Shown: one piece after another, positions 3,838-42,827 of the stretch
How the letters are laid out: every line of letters begins with the position of its first letter
How positions within the stretch are numbered: position 1 is the stretch's first letter
Made by a program: the position numbers and the translations under genes
Assembly: GCA_029939505.1 (NCBI GenBank)
Contig: JAOZSV010000010.1
Coordinates: 1-57,626, forward strand
Length of the DNA stretch: 57,626 nucleotides
DNA from: Thiotrichaceae bacterium
Lineage (GTDB): Bacteria > Pseudomonadota > Gammaproteobacteria > Beggiatoales > Beggiatoaceae
Reading direction: 5' to 3'
Notes under the pieces: generated by a model
What the model saw: the letters and a program-made list of their open reading frames with translations, nothing else
The model's database searches: none
Told to the model about the DNA's origin: nothing

Positions 3838-4024
3838 GTAAAACAACCCCCTAAAATTGGGGGTTGGAATTTTATTTGTATAAAGAGCCATTTTAAATGG
3901 CTTGAAGCCATAAAAAAACCCACCCAGTGAGCATCGTTGAGAGGCTTGGCGGGGATAGTCATCTACTATTATAATGACTTTGAAAAAAAACAACCCCCTA
4001 AAATTGGGGTTTGAAATTTTATTT
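3838..4024. repeat. Direct repeat pair around AACAACCCCCTAAAATTGGG
   Basis: The stretch ACAACCCCCTAAAATTGGGG followed by a TTGGAATTTTATTT-like tail occurs at 3842-3876 and again at 3989-4024. The text between shows no gene. The second copy runs into the leader of the small gene starting at 4061. Confidence 0.6.
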
Positions 4025-9584: not shown

Positions 9585-9893
9585 ACAATTTTAAATGGTG
9601 CGAACCCAGCACCTCTATTCCGTATCTCTATAAGTAAATCAAGAGCTTCTGGAACTACTTTTTTAACGATTCCTATAGCTCCATTCAAATCCGCATTAAT
9701 TATACCCTTAGACCATGAGACAAACCTCTACTAACACGTTTACCAGTAAAGCGATGCGATTCACCCTTTTTATAAACCGGCAATGGGTCATTGTCTAAGT
9801 GACTTGATTTGGAGGTATAAGATTCTTCGGTAAAAACAACATCAATACCAAATTCTTCGGCTTTATATTCAATCATTGCTTTGAACTTATCAT

Positions 9894-9932
9894 TTCGAGG
9901 TTCAAGTTGGTAAAAAAACTTGAACCTCGAAA
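9894..9932. repeat. TTCGAGG hairpin inserted in tnpB
   Basis: The arms are TTCGAGGTTCAAG and CTTGAACCTCGAA. Removing about 38 bases restores the expected tnpB reading ...SIPFDKFKAM... across the junction. Confidence 0.85.
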
Positions 9933-10011
9933 GGGATCGAAACAAAATTCTGGTTGTTCTTTTTCCCAATATTGATTTTCTGTTTCCAGTGCTTGTTTTC
10001 ACCGATAATAG

Positions 10012-10100
10012 ATTTGTCCCTTAATAAGCGTAAACCCTTGAAAATGCTAAATATCAAAACGATATAAATCAATAACTTAGCTTATTAAGGGACAAGTCTA
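10012..10100. mobile_element. TTGTCCCTTAATAAG-ended inverted repeat element in tnpB
   Basis: TTGTCCCTTAATAAGCG at 10016-10032 pairs with GCTTATTAAGGGACAAG at about 10081-10098 around an AT-rich core. Removal joins tnpB codons ...NSGLII and GENKHWKQ.... A lone end, ACTTGTCCCTTTA, sits at 10208-10220. Confidence 0.65.
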
Positions 10101-10341
10101 ATAATTAAACCACTGTTGGTTTCTACCGCATAATCAATAATGCTTCTACTCGCTTTATGCAGGTAATCATCTGTTTTTTGATGACTTTGACAGACGGGCA
10201 ATTGAATGACTTGTCCCTTTATCACCGATAAACGACATCCGTTTCGCTTTTTTCTTGTTAAAGTATTGATTGATGGATTTCAATGGCTTGCCATTTATCA
10301 ACTTATGATGCACATCTGGTTGATTTGAGACTAATGTGGCT

Positions 10342-10384
10342 TTCGAGGCGATAGTTTTTTTAAAGAAAAAACTATCGCCTCGAA
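10342..10384. repeat. TTCGAGG hairpin inserted in frame in tnpB
   Basis: The arms are TTCGAGGCGATAG and CTATCGCCTCGAA. It adds exactly 42 bases (14 codons, no stop) between ...GLNHF and ATLVSNQ.... Confidence 0.88.
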
Positions 10385-10570
10385 AATGATTTAATCCAAG
10401 ATCAATACCTAAAACATTATCATGAGTTAATTCATAATTTGACACCTCTTTTTTATAAACCACTTCAATCACAAAATGCCTGTATTTTGGAATGATACGT
10501 ACTTGTTGCAGGTTGTTAACAGTTGTATTTAATACAGGCAATTCATTTGGGAAAACGGATTTGATTGTTG

Positions 10571-12000: not shown

Positions 12001-12546
12001 ATGGATGAACGCGAATTTCAACAAGTACGCAAACAACTTAATCAACACCCTTTTCGAGGTTAAAGTTTTTGCTTTACAAAAACTTTAACCTCGAAACCAT
12101 TTGAGAAGGCCATTTTTAGTAGTTGTTGCTGCACAAAATGTCAACGTTTAAATATTGCTGAACGTGAAACGGCAGCTTGTTTATCAGCAACAGCGCAAGC
12201 ACGGTGTATTATATTGCTTGATCAGTTATACCAAAATGCTCGGTTTGCGATTAAAACAGTACGCTTTGTTGGTCCACAACCTCACGCTAAAGCAATGAAA
12301 GTGCAATGTGGTGGATTAATCGGCTTGCAATCTGTGTTAGTTTTAAAAGAAACTTTTGATATAAAAAAAGAAGGTTTTGAAACGAAACCGATCAAAGATA
12401 TTGACGCTTTAGTTACACAAGCATTGGAACAATTGGGAAGCATAGAAAAATTTCCCTATCAAGAAATTGTGAAATTTATTAGTCATTATCAAGTTCGTGC
12501 TAAACGCGCCCACAGTTTTTCAGGCAAAAGTTTCGCAGTATGGTAG
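12001..12546 (+). pseudogene. Conserved Cys-rich protein gene stopped by a hairpin insertion
   Basis: An ATG at 12001 opens MDEREFQQVRKQLNQHPF and is then hit by a TTCGAGG hairpin. Past it the same frame resumes as EKAIFSSCCCTKCQRLNIAERE, then ACLSATAQARCIILLDQLYQ, to FSGKSFAVW at 12546. The insert (12055-12102, 48 bases) keeps the frame but brings a TAA at 12061. Without it the product would be about 165 residues with a CCC-x2-C cluster that could bind metal. I do not recognise the family. Re-initiation at a TTG at 12214 could give the last 110 residues. It is either dead or expressed in two parts. Confidence 0.75.
12053..12095. repeat. TTCGAGG hairpin inside a gene
   Basis: The arms are TTCGAGGTTAAAG and CTTTAACCTCGAA. 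It interrupts the reading frame that begins at 12001 with an in-frame stop. Confidence 0.88.
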
Positions 12547-15145: not shown

Positions 15146-15575
15146 TGATTTTAATTCAGACCATTTTACCAGCTAAAAAAAGTATGTCAAGAGGTTTATC
15201 AAAATTTTTTTAATTAATTGACAAAGCAGCTAAAGTTTTTTTTCAAAAAAACTTTAGCTGCTTTATTATTTATGCGAATTAATGGCTCATAAAATGCTTT
15301 AAAATCGTCACTCCGCTTTGAAATGTGAATATACTCCAACTAAAGCGTTTTTCGAGGTTTTCGTTTTTTGAAAAAAAACGAAAACCTCGAATGTACCCCA
15401 TTCGCATGTCAAGGCTGAGTCGTTACCATTTATTAAATAATTAAGTTAATTAATTTATTTAATTAAAATAAATTTTAAATGAATTGTCAACTGTTTTAAA
15501 TAATTTTTTTATAACTATTATGATATAATATATAGATTAGCCCTTAAAATCTATAATCTGAACAGAGAATAATCT
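15146..15575. repeat. Spacer between tRNA cluster and kinases, with palindromes
   Basis: A hairpin AAAGCAGCTAAAG...CTTTAGCTGCTTT lies at 15223-15265. A degenerate GTAAC element (about 15307-15426) encloses a TTCGAGGTTTTCG hairpin at 15351-15391. The promoter of the divergent tRNA operon should lie at about 15150-15220. The AT-rich run 15430-15575 precedes the first kinase. Confidence 0.6.
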
Positions 15576-29633: not shown

Positions 29634-31457
29634 TCAATTTTGATAACGAAGGCTCAAAAACCAAAAGCGTCCATAAGTGTTATAAAAACGAGCGGTTTGA
29701 TATTCCTTATCAAAGACATTTTCCAATCGCGCCCGCAAGGCAAAATGTTTACCAAAATGATATTCATGAGTCAAATTCACTATGCTATAGCCACCTAAGC
29801 GGTGATTATTAGCAGCATCATCATAGCGATGACTTTGAGCTAATACACTTATTTCTGTCTTCATTGCCCCTCGTCTTTCCCCCAAAGCAACATTCAAGGT
29901 TTTTTGGGCGCGACGGGGTAACAATTTGCCCGTTTCTTCATTTTCGGCTTTTAACCAAGATAGCTTTGTTTTAAATGTCCATCCGCCCTTCTGCCAATTT
30001 AAATCACCTTCTATCCCATTGATTGCTGCTTGATTAATGTTATCAGCAAAATAGTTGCCCGTTTCTGCATCAAACTGGGTAGCAATCAGTTGATCAATAT
30101 GAGTGCGATAAGCCGTGAGTGACCATTTATAATAAAGCTGCGTACCCATTAAGCCAAATTCAATACTTTCAGATTCTTCAGGCACAAGGTTGGGATTGCC
30201 AAAGTTTGGAAAATATAATTCGTTAAACGAGGGGGCTTTAAAGGCAGTTCCGTAGTTCGCGATAAAGCGCGTTCTCTGGCTCAGGGCATAACCTAAGCCA
30301 ATATTACCCGTCTTGTGTTTTCCAAATTGCTCATTATCATCTTTGCGGAATCCAACTATCCAGTCTGTTCTTCCAGATCGCGTTTGATATTCAGCAAATA
30401 TCCCTTTGTTATCAAGAGAATCTATAGTAAAAGCGGTACTACTGTCCACCTCATCTTTTTGTAAATCTAAACCGACAGTCAACGTATCTCTCTTTGAAAA
30501 GAAAAAGTTATTCTGAAAAGAGCCTGTTTTTCGAGTGGTATGAAAATAGGATTTTGTGCTATGACCAAAATTATCAGTTTTATCAAGGCTTTGACCCATA
30601 TTCAGATTAATCAGCCAATTATCGTTAACCACATAATCCCCTTTCATGCCTAGCACTTGTTGAACAAAATCCGCTTCATTATCATAAGAAGAATCATATT
30701 CAGTATGACCTTCTGTACGCAAAGCATAAGCCTCCATACTGATTTTCTCCCCAAGGCGTTGCCCCAATCGAAGATGATATGATGTATTTTCATAACCATC
30801 CTCATCTGGCTCAATTGTAAAACAACCGCCGCTATTACTTCCTTGACAATCATTAAAACCGTCTGTTTGGATACGGTTTGCAAATAGGCTATACCAACTC
30901 TCTTTAGTTGCACCTGACACACCAGCGTTGAATTGATAAGTATTATCAGCCCCTATTCCGCCGCTAATTGTCACGGACGGTTTTTTGCTCTTACCTTTAC
31001 GGGTGAAAATCTGTATAACCCCACCAATCGCCTCGGATCCGTACAAACTAGAACGGGGCCCACGTACAATTTCAACACGCTCAATTTGTGATAAGGGTAA
31101 ATGCTCAAAAGAGAAACGACCCAATGTCGCCGAACCGACTTTAATGCCGTCAATAAGCACCAAGACATGATCAGATTCAGTTCCCCGCATAAAAACAGAA
31201 CTGGGTTTCCCTAATCCACCATTATTGGCGATATCTACCCCTGGCACACCGCGTAAAATATCAGGAAGCGTTAAAGCTTGGCTTCTTTCAATCTCATCGC
31301 GCCTTATCACAGTCACTGATGCAAGCGAATCATTAACAGTTTTGGCAGTACGAGTCGCCGTCACAACGACTTTTGGTAGAACATTGTCAGCATTGCTTAA
31401 CAATGGATAAAAAATGAAATTCAATAAGATTAATCGAAAAAAATGCTTCAAAGTCAC
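29634..31457 (-). CDS. btuB: TonB-dependent outer-membrane cobalamin receptor
   Basis: This 607-residue outer-membrane barrel takes up vitamin B12 with TonB energy. It has a signal peptide (about 1-23), a TonB-box-like LPKVVVTATRT, a plug domain with RGTESDHVLVLIDGIKV and IERVEIVRGPRSSLYGSEAIGGVI, and a barrel ending in aromatic FWFLSLRYQN. The start is GTG 31457 with GAGGAAC just before it. A cobalamin riboswitch lies 75 bases upstream on the same strand, which supports the substrate assignment and repression by B12. Confidence 0.95.
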   Translation of the reverse strand: MTLKHFFRLILLNFIFYPLLSNADNVLPKVVVTATRTAKTVNDSLASVTVIRRDEIERSQALTLPDILRGVPGVDIANNGGLGKPSSVFMRGTESDHVLVLIDGIKVGSATLGRFSFEHLPLSQIERVEIVRGPRSSLYGSEAIGGVIQIFTRKGKSKKPSVTISGGIGADNTYQFNAGVSGATKESWYSLFANRIQTDGFNDCQGSNSGGCFTIEPDEDGYENTSYHLRLGQRLGEKISMEAYALRTEGHTEYDSSYDNEADFVQQVLGMKGDYVVNDNWLINLNMGQSLDKTDNFGHSTKSYFHTTRKTGSFQNNFFFSKRDTLTVGLDLQKDEVDSSTAFTIDSLDNKGIFAEYQTRSGRTDWIVGFRKDDNEQFGKHKTGNIGLGYALSQRTRFIANYGTAFKAPSFNELYFPNFGNPNLVPEESESIEFGLMGTQLYYKWSLTAYRTHIDQLIATQFDAETGNYFADNINQAAINGIEGDLNWQKGGWTFKTKLSWLKAENEETGKLLPRRAQKTLNVALGERRGAMKTEISVLAQSHRYDDAANNHRLGGYSIVNLTHEYHFGKHFALRARLENVFDKEYQTARFYNTYGRFWFLSLRYQN

Positions 31458-31531
31458 GTTCCTCGTTCTATTTAAAATATACGGAGGAAAATAATATAGA
31501 TCAGTCTATCGCCCTCCGCGACATAATCAAA

Positions 31532-31756
31532 ATGTTTAGGCAGGTTTCCGGGCTCATAAGTAGGCGTGATACCTCAGTCAATCGCCTTCCCACGTTTTAC
31601 TGAAACGCAGTGGCTAATGATTAACCTTTCGAGGCGAAAGTTTTTTTAACGAAAAAACTTTCGCCTCGAAAACTTATTTACCGTTGCGGGGGCAGCATCG
31701 GATTGACACCGATTTCCCTTTTACCTTATCAGCAATGCTAATAAGCACCTAAACAT
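31532..31756 (-). promoter_or_regulatory. Cobalamin riboswitch with an inserted TTCGAGG hairpin
   Basis: Read on the minus strand, P1 is made by TGTTTAGG (5') and CCTAAACA (3'). The conserved core is present as GGGAAATCGGTGTCAATCCG, GCAACGGTAAAT, AGCCACTG, GTGGGAAGGCG and the B12 box GAGCCCGGAAACCTGCC. A TTCGAGGCGAAAG hairpin at 31628-31670 sits between GCAACGGTAAAT and AGCCACTG, a region that is a variable stem in other cobalamin riboswitches. It controls btuB directly downstream. Confidence 0.93.
31628..31670. repeat. TTCGAGG hairpin within the riboswitch
   Basis: The arms are TTCGAGGCGAAAG and CTTTCGCCTCGAA, 13 bp perfect, with a T/A loop. Confidence 0.9.
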
Positions 31757-31797
31757 GTAATTATACTCAGCATGGGAATAACTTTTTAGATAGAAAC

Positions 31798-42784: not shown

Positions 42785-42827
42785 TTCGAGGCTAAAGTTT
42801 TTTCTTCAAAAAAACTTTAGCCTCGAA
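42785..42827. repeat. TTCGAGG hairpin inserted in a CTCGTTCCC repeat
   Basis: TTCGAGGCTAAAG...CTTTAGCCTCGAA interrupts CTCGTTCCC / TTCTATTTGGGAATGCC, which in other copies reads CTCGTTCCCAAATTCTATTT. The empty and filled sites are therefore both visible in the window. Confidence 0.88.

Follow-up and report, generated by a model that had tools for sequence, protein, structure and literature searches.

A dispersed palindromic repeat inserted in the cobalamin riboswitch of a Thiotrichaceae bacterium

The minus strand of contig JAOZSV010000010.1 of a Thiotrichaceae bacterium (positions 1 to 57,626, referred to here as the window) encodes a cobalamin riboswitch that is interrupted by a perfect hairpin. 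This raises the questions of where the hairpin came from, when it arrived, and whether the riboswitch might still work in its presence.

Cobalamin riboswitch and its gene context

A cmscan search of the window aligns positions 31767 to 31522 (minus strand) with the complete Rfam model RF00174 (model positions 1 to 189), with a score of 94.1 bits (E = 3.7e-22) against a gathering score of 31.5 bits. This is the single RF00174 match in the entire 5.58-Mb genome. The core sequence blocks and P1 of the aptamer are undamaged, and the L5 loop CCCCC is present. A preliminary description of this DNA had recognized a B12 aptamer with intact conserved blocks on the minus strand; its boundaries, 31532 and 31756, fall just within the Rfam match.

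31522 to 31767, minus strand: cobalamin (B12) riboswitch aptamer, RF00174, complete (cmscan); 98.5% identical to the sister aptamer outside the insertion
29634 to 31457, minus strand: intact open reading frame for a btuB-like TonB-dependent outer-membrane receptor of 607 aa

The receptor gene begins about 65 to 71 nt downstream of the aptamer and is named btuB-like from sequence reading, relatives, and position. Its product shares 94% identity with the receptor of a Thiomargarita sp. MAG, in which the riboswitch locus is the same as in the sister genome, G002. This identity places the organism in the Thiomargarita group, as a relative of the giant sulfur bacteria. The btuB genes of the window and the sister share 95.6% of their nucleotides, with changes biased toward third codon positions. 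In the aligned leaders, the TTG at 31451 to 31449 is conserved and the GTG at 31457 is not; the true btuB start is probably the former.

The palindrome and its repeat family

31628 to 31670, no strand assigned: inserted palindrome, member of the TTCGAGG hairpin family (about 1,180 copies); empty site in relatives

On the plus strand, this segment reads TTCGAGGCGAAAGTTTTTT-TAACG-AAAAAACTTTCGCCTCGAA, with perfect 19-nt arms and a 5-nt loop, and these coordinates agree with the 43-nt TTCGAGG hairpin previously noticed inside the aptamer. As an isolated RNA, it has a folding energy of -26.4 kcal/mol (z = -6.6), which none of 200 shuffles equaled. The window contains 15 similar half-hairpins, where 0.02 would be expected, so the hairpin is not a chance palindrome. 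Allowing up to 3 mismatches, the 43-mer is found in about 207 copies in the genome (none for the reversed control). The looser half-site TTCGAGG-N5-GTTTTT is found 1157 + 1207 times (control, 0), equivalent to about 1,180 hairpins, or about one per 4.7 kb. The sister genome has about 118 copies of the 43-mer and about 770 hairpins of the wider family, the congener G001 has none of the former and about 40 of the latter, and in several other genera of the taxonomic family the number of TTCGAGG-type hairpins ranges from a few to about 120.

The element is a non-autonomous dispersed palindromic repeat of 41 to 45 nt, MITE-like or REP-like, with TTCGAGG...CCTCGAA ends. As in MITEs, there are terminal inverted repeats, coding capacity is absent, and the copies are dispersed. 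MITE insertions are accompanied by a target-site duplication, often TA. REP elements, which are linked to RAYT transposases, are palindromes of 20 to 40 nt, present in high copy number and mainly intergenic. TTCGAGG hairpins are likewise short and numerous but carry no foot tag of the GTAG or CGTC type. The genome has three Y1 transposase genes; none of these hairpins was found in the loci of 2.2 to 3.3 kb around them, and a linked RAYT/Y1 transposase was dropped as a candidate for that reason. An intrinsic terminator was considered and dropped as well: the T run is part of the 5' arm, and none follows the hairpin on either strand.

Empty sites and the age of the insertion

In the sister genome (locus L060), the site is empty. 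Its plus strand reads GATTAACCT-T-AACTTATTT (AACCT-T-AACTT at the site itself) versus GATTAACCT-(43 nt)-AACTTATTT in the window. On the transcribed strand, the exact junctions are ...AAATAAGTT^ and ^AGGTTAATCATTAGCCACTG...; the interval between GCAACGGTAAAT and AGCCACTG given in the preliminary description is right but broad. The site is also empty in the second congener, G001, in the Thioploca MAG (L061), and in more distant relatives of the taxonomic family. The aptamers of the sister and G001 score 112.4 and 113.3 bits, respectively, versus the 94.1 bits of the window. The sister also lacks the hairpin at other sites that carry it here, including the coding sequence near 12053 and the sites L101_2776, L101_9833, L102_4382, and L102_11279.

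Among the 32 riboswitches compared, about a third of which misfit a short pattern and were inspected visually, the site-bearing segment is 20 to 29 nt long in those listed that fit the pattern and 63 nt long in the window. Three of the 32 have segments of 41 to 50 nt, with an extra hairpin that adjoins GCCACTG and not the window's site. An ordinary variable stem of the riboswitch family that merely resembles the repeat could be argued from L055, L059, and L062, whose accessory regions contain hairpins at other places. Those hairpins, however, adjoin GCCACUG or occupy the other strand, and the 43-mer belongs to a set of about 207 near-identical copies dispersed in the genome, which makes this explanation exceedingly improbable. 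A conserved family stem is refuted by the empty sites, where close relatives read through.

The fragmented assembly (497 contigs) brings up another explanation, the misplacement of a highly repeated 43-mer in the contig, as repeats commonly cause misjoins. A misjoin would link unrelated flanks, whereas both flanks here belong to one riboswitch and are collinear with the sister, and such an artefact is very improbable. By these sequence comparisons, the insertion is private to this lineage and recent, having followed the split from the sister.

The mobile insertion proposed in the preliminary description thus agrees with the comparison to sister strains that it outlined: the sister, the second congener, and the Thioploca MAG lack the hairpin. 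The outcome that it had named as contrary, the same hairpin at this place in many unrelated riboswitches, was not seen among the 31 others compared. Its term "transposable" is borne out only as far as dispersal with empty sites goes.

Junctions and other insertion sites

No target-site duplication was seen at six orthologous sites where this genome has the hairpin and the sister does not. The empty-site junctions at these sites differ by 1 to 4 nt (T, TTC, TTC, GC, C, and ACGA), often the first nt of TTC; where T or TTC is found, the element's first bases were already present in the target. Similar junctions are seen where the element entered other repeats (CCC-AAA-TTC and GGT-TT-TGG). They fit either template switching guided by microhomology or a transposase for which such a target is required. 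The hairpin at 12053 to 12095 of the window breaks a coding sequence, shifting its frame, and the sister (L091) reads through. Since one copy causes this frameshift, the element is not targeted to RNAs.

Some of the other copies have unusual arrangements. The two cases found at sites occupied in both genomes (L101 8744 to 8786 versus L107 1307 to 1350, and L102 17529 to 17571 versus L123 1688 to 1730) both have matching flanks and an inverted asymmetric hairpin loop; the palindrome could have inverted in place, or the assembler could have flipped it. At another common site (window 15351 to 15391 versus L089 5913 to 5954), the arms differ (TTTTCG versus CGAAAG type) and the TTCGAGG/CCTCGAA ends are kept, suggesting that one hairpin type was replaced by another at a fixed place. 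At L101 6246 to 6325, a hairpin is nested inside another, and the sister has a single hairpin. The hairpin also recurs at one point of a different palindromic repeat, CTCGTTCCC...CTCTGTTTGGGAACGAG (window 42785 to 42827, L103, L105 at 2158, and L106 at 263 and 9338), which may be a composite repeat or a preferred target.

Two other features of the window were noted. Minus-strand remnants at 9700 to 10541 read like a TnpB-like (IS605 OrfB) gene and contain TTCGAGG hairpins at 9894 and 10342. A match to the Rfam abiF RNA (3918 to 3953, minus strand, 48.1 bits) may mark an AbiF-type defence system.

Structure of the aptamer around the insertion

The segment that carries the insertion belongs to the P6 accessory region, the length and stem number of which are highly variable (PMC9600662). 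Two helices flank the insertion point, and a short hairpin lies opposite.

31672 to 31677, minus strand: helix A, 5' strand AUAAGU; pairs with 31556 to 31561 and closes the insertion-bearing junction (MFE folds of both forms)
31556 to 31561, minus strand: helix A, 3' strand ACUUAU (MFE fold, covariation)
31619 to 31626, minus strand: helix B, 5' strand GGUUAAUC; pairs with 31576 to 31583 and begins directly after the hairpin
31576 to 31583, minus strand: helix B, 3' strand GAUUGACU (MFE fold, covariation)
31562 to 31574, minus strand: short hairpin AGGU-AUCAC-GCCU, across the junction from the insertion, predicted in the occupied and empty forms

In the MFE folds, which with RNAfold leave out the kissing loop, the ligand, and co-transcriptional folding, the aptamer with the hairpin (-92.4) and the sister's natural aptamer without it (-56.4) have their helices in common, and the hairpin is the sole addition. 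It is predicted to run directly from the end of helix A to the start of helix B, with no unpaired nucleotide between it and either helix. The insertion would turn a predicted three-way junction into a four-way junction and leave the core pairings unchanged. The flanking helices covary among 22 relatives: double changes are seen in 6 of the 6 pairs of helix A and 8 of the 8 pairs of helix B (84% of cells paired). For the two helices together, all 14 pairs are changed on both sides, with 82.9% of cells paired versus at most 44% in slid registers, and the covariation is 0.469 versus 0.191 after shuffling (0/500). The AGGU/GCCU hairpin varies in length and sequence among relatives. When the hairpin was inserted in silico at every position of the sister aptamer, the actual point kept 54.98 of 55.44 expected native pairs and ranked 42nd of 207, which suggests a tolerant point, though not a uniquely tolerant one.

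The preliminary description had the hairpin extending a variable stem and proposed to look in the RF00174 alignment for a replaced one. No stem is extended or replaced: the hairpin forms a new junction branch, on a strand that is hairpin-free in every relative compared. The Rfam alignment treats it as an insert and threads its 5' arm partly through accessory-stem positions at low posterior, and this mis-threading accounts for part of the fall in score from the 112.4 bits of the sister. The claim that the core was not harmed fared better, as the predicted native helices are kept in the occupied, empty, and in-silico forms; disrupted core pairings, the sign of damage named at the time, are not found in the predicted folds despite the drop to 94.1 bits.

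Expression platform

31508 to 31522, minus strand: hairpin GUCGC-GGAGG-GCGAU, candidate P13-L13; conserved in the sister, the congener, and Thioploca
31482 to 31491, minus strand: UUUUCCUCCG, candidate anti-Shine-Dalgarno; conserved in the window, G002, and G001
31459 to 31464, minus strand: GAGGAA, candidate btuB ribosome-binding site; conserved in all four aligned leaders

The P13-L13 and anti-Shine-Dalgarno roles are proposed from one small alignment. The GUCGC-GGAGG-GCGAU hairpin may be P13-L13, the kissing partner of L5; set against CCCCC, its GGAGG loop leaves one mismatch. The UUUUCCUCCG block, which is not kept in the Thioploca leader, has two alternative pairing partners, CGGAGG in L13 and GAGGAA at 31459 to 31464, and L13 and the ribosome-binding site might compete for CCUCC. 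In the sister leader (L060, about 456 to 595, corresponding to about 31500 in the window), another kind of repeat, about 137 nt long, GGGCGAACACGCAGGTTCGCCCC...GTAGGGGCAGAC..., lies between the L13 hairpin and UUUUCCUCCG. As the repeats in the two sister leaders are different, these leaders were hit independently.

Fate of the riboswitch

Outside the insertion, the aptamer differs from that of the sister by 3 substitutions in 204 positions and a 2-nt indel, compared with 8/114 just upstream and 50/608 at the third codon positions of btuB. A C-A mismatch in P1 of the sister is a U-A pair in the window, where P1 is perfectly paired. The aptamer has no signs of decay; this is weak evidence for function since the insertion, not proof, because part of the low divergence predates the insertion.

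These data suggest the following scheme. After the split from the sister, a TTCGAGG palindrome inserted into the P6 region of the genome's single cobalamin riboswitch, between helices A and B. In the RNA, it would fold on itself as a 20-bp arm stacked flush between the two helices, with the ligand-binding core untouched. With B12 bound, L5-L13 kissing would free UUUUCCUCCG, which would mask the GAGGAA ribosome-binding site; with B12 absent, CGGAGG would pair with CCUCCG, leaving that site open. Most likely, translation of btuB is still switched off by this riboswitch in response to B12, and the hairpin would be a tolerated passenger. We consider this reading as a whole, a tolerated selfish insertion that creates a four-way junction in a still-working switch, to be quite likely.

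The insertion might instead impair the riboswitch: a long stable arm would alter how the accessory domain is shaped or how fast it folds, and btuB would be constitutively on (or off) in this lineage, with a core sequence that has yet to decay. In class-I cobalamin riboswitches, the accessory domain matters for affinity. The 18-bit drop in the covariance model score points the same way, the few substitutions since the sister split may mean that decay is not yet visible, and the 137-nt repeat in the sister's expression platform suggests that the leader is loosely constrained. However, the predicted native pairs are retained, the junction and the accessory region vary in length and branching among relatives, and P1 is better paired than in the sister; impairment is a minor possibility.

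As for benefit, the hairpin lies flush with helices A and B inside a transcribed regulatory RNA, where it could have been co-opted and selected for faster accessory folding, RNase blocking, or tuning of the B12 response. The number of insertions in the aptamer expected from copy number is, by our estimate, about 0.24, with about 1,180 hairpins, all taken as intergenic, about 1.0 Mb of target, and a 206-nt aptamer. The target size assumes the 18% intergenic share of the "Ca. T. nelsonii" genome (PMC4853749). At this expectation, one insertion in the aptamer requires no special explanation, which, together with the occurrence in one species only and the lack of adaptation in the surrounding sequence, speaks against co-option. 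Nor do other Rfam RNAs carry the hairpin in 163 kb of hairpin-bearing DNA, where cmscan for other structured RNAs that were hit found only one nearby tRNA. Selection for the hairpin thus seems improbable, and so, to a similar degree, does the capture of a selfish palindrome as a working fourth arm of the accessory domain that alters folding or response. The earlier wording that the palindrome was becoming part of a regulatory RNA is apt in the physical sense only, the hairpin being inside the predicted transcript.

Relation to known systems

The locus resembles other RF00174 riboswitches in its core blocks, P1, CCCCC loop of L5, accessory region, and place before a btuB-like gene, and differs from them in the extra 20-bp arm derived from a dispersed repeat and the predicted four-way instead of three-way junction. 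Rickettsia palindromic elements (RPE, 105 to 146 bp) occur within tmRNA and RNase P RNA (Ogata et al. 2002; reviewed in PMC2229807). They are also selfish palindromes within structured RNAs, presumably tolerated, but the organism and the element are different, and the hosts are RNA genes rather than a ligand-sensing leader. Flood et al. (2016, PMC4853749) described a MITE within hairpin P9 of the group I intron in dsrA of "Ca. Thiomargarita nelsonii." This case shares with the present one the genus and a dispersed palindromic repeat within a structured RNA; the MITE, as described, is set apart by ends in TATAG direct repeats and a ribozyme host. In Streptococcus pneumoniae, a BOX element lies between two T-box riboswitches upstream of trp (PMC3049150), again a small repeat in a riboswitch-controlled leader where the riboswitches still seem to work, but it is placed between aptamers and not within one. 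No published mobile palindrome inside a riboswitch aptamer was found in the literature searched, the coverage of which was partial. The present locus adds a clean, dated case to a phenomenon already known, with no new mechanism.

Its value is in the natural before-and-after pair, with the sister lacking the hairpin and this species carrying it, which bears on how riboswitch accessory domains gain arms, a question usually approached only through distant sequence comparison. Apart from the hairpin, the natural aptamers are distinguished by three substitutions and a 2-nt indel, which makes the effect of a single insertion directly measurable. The pair suggests that, at least where genomes are rich in repeats, mobile palindromes can feed the wide differences in stem number among the accessory regions of cobalamin riboswitches. 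If the fourth arm has been captured, it would represent one step by which a regulatory RNA grows in nature as mobile hairpins insert into it.
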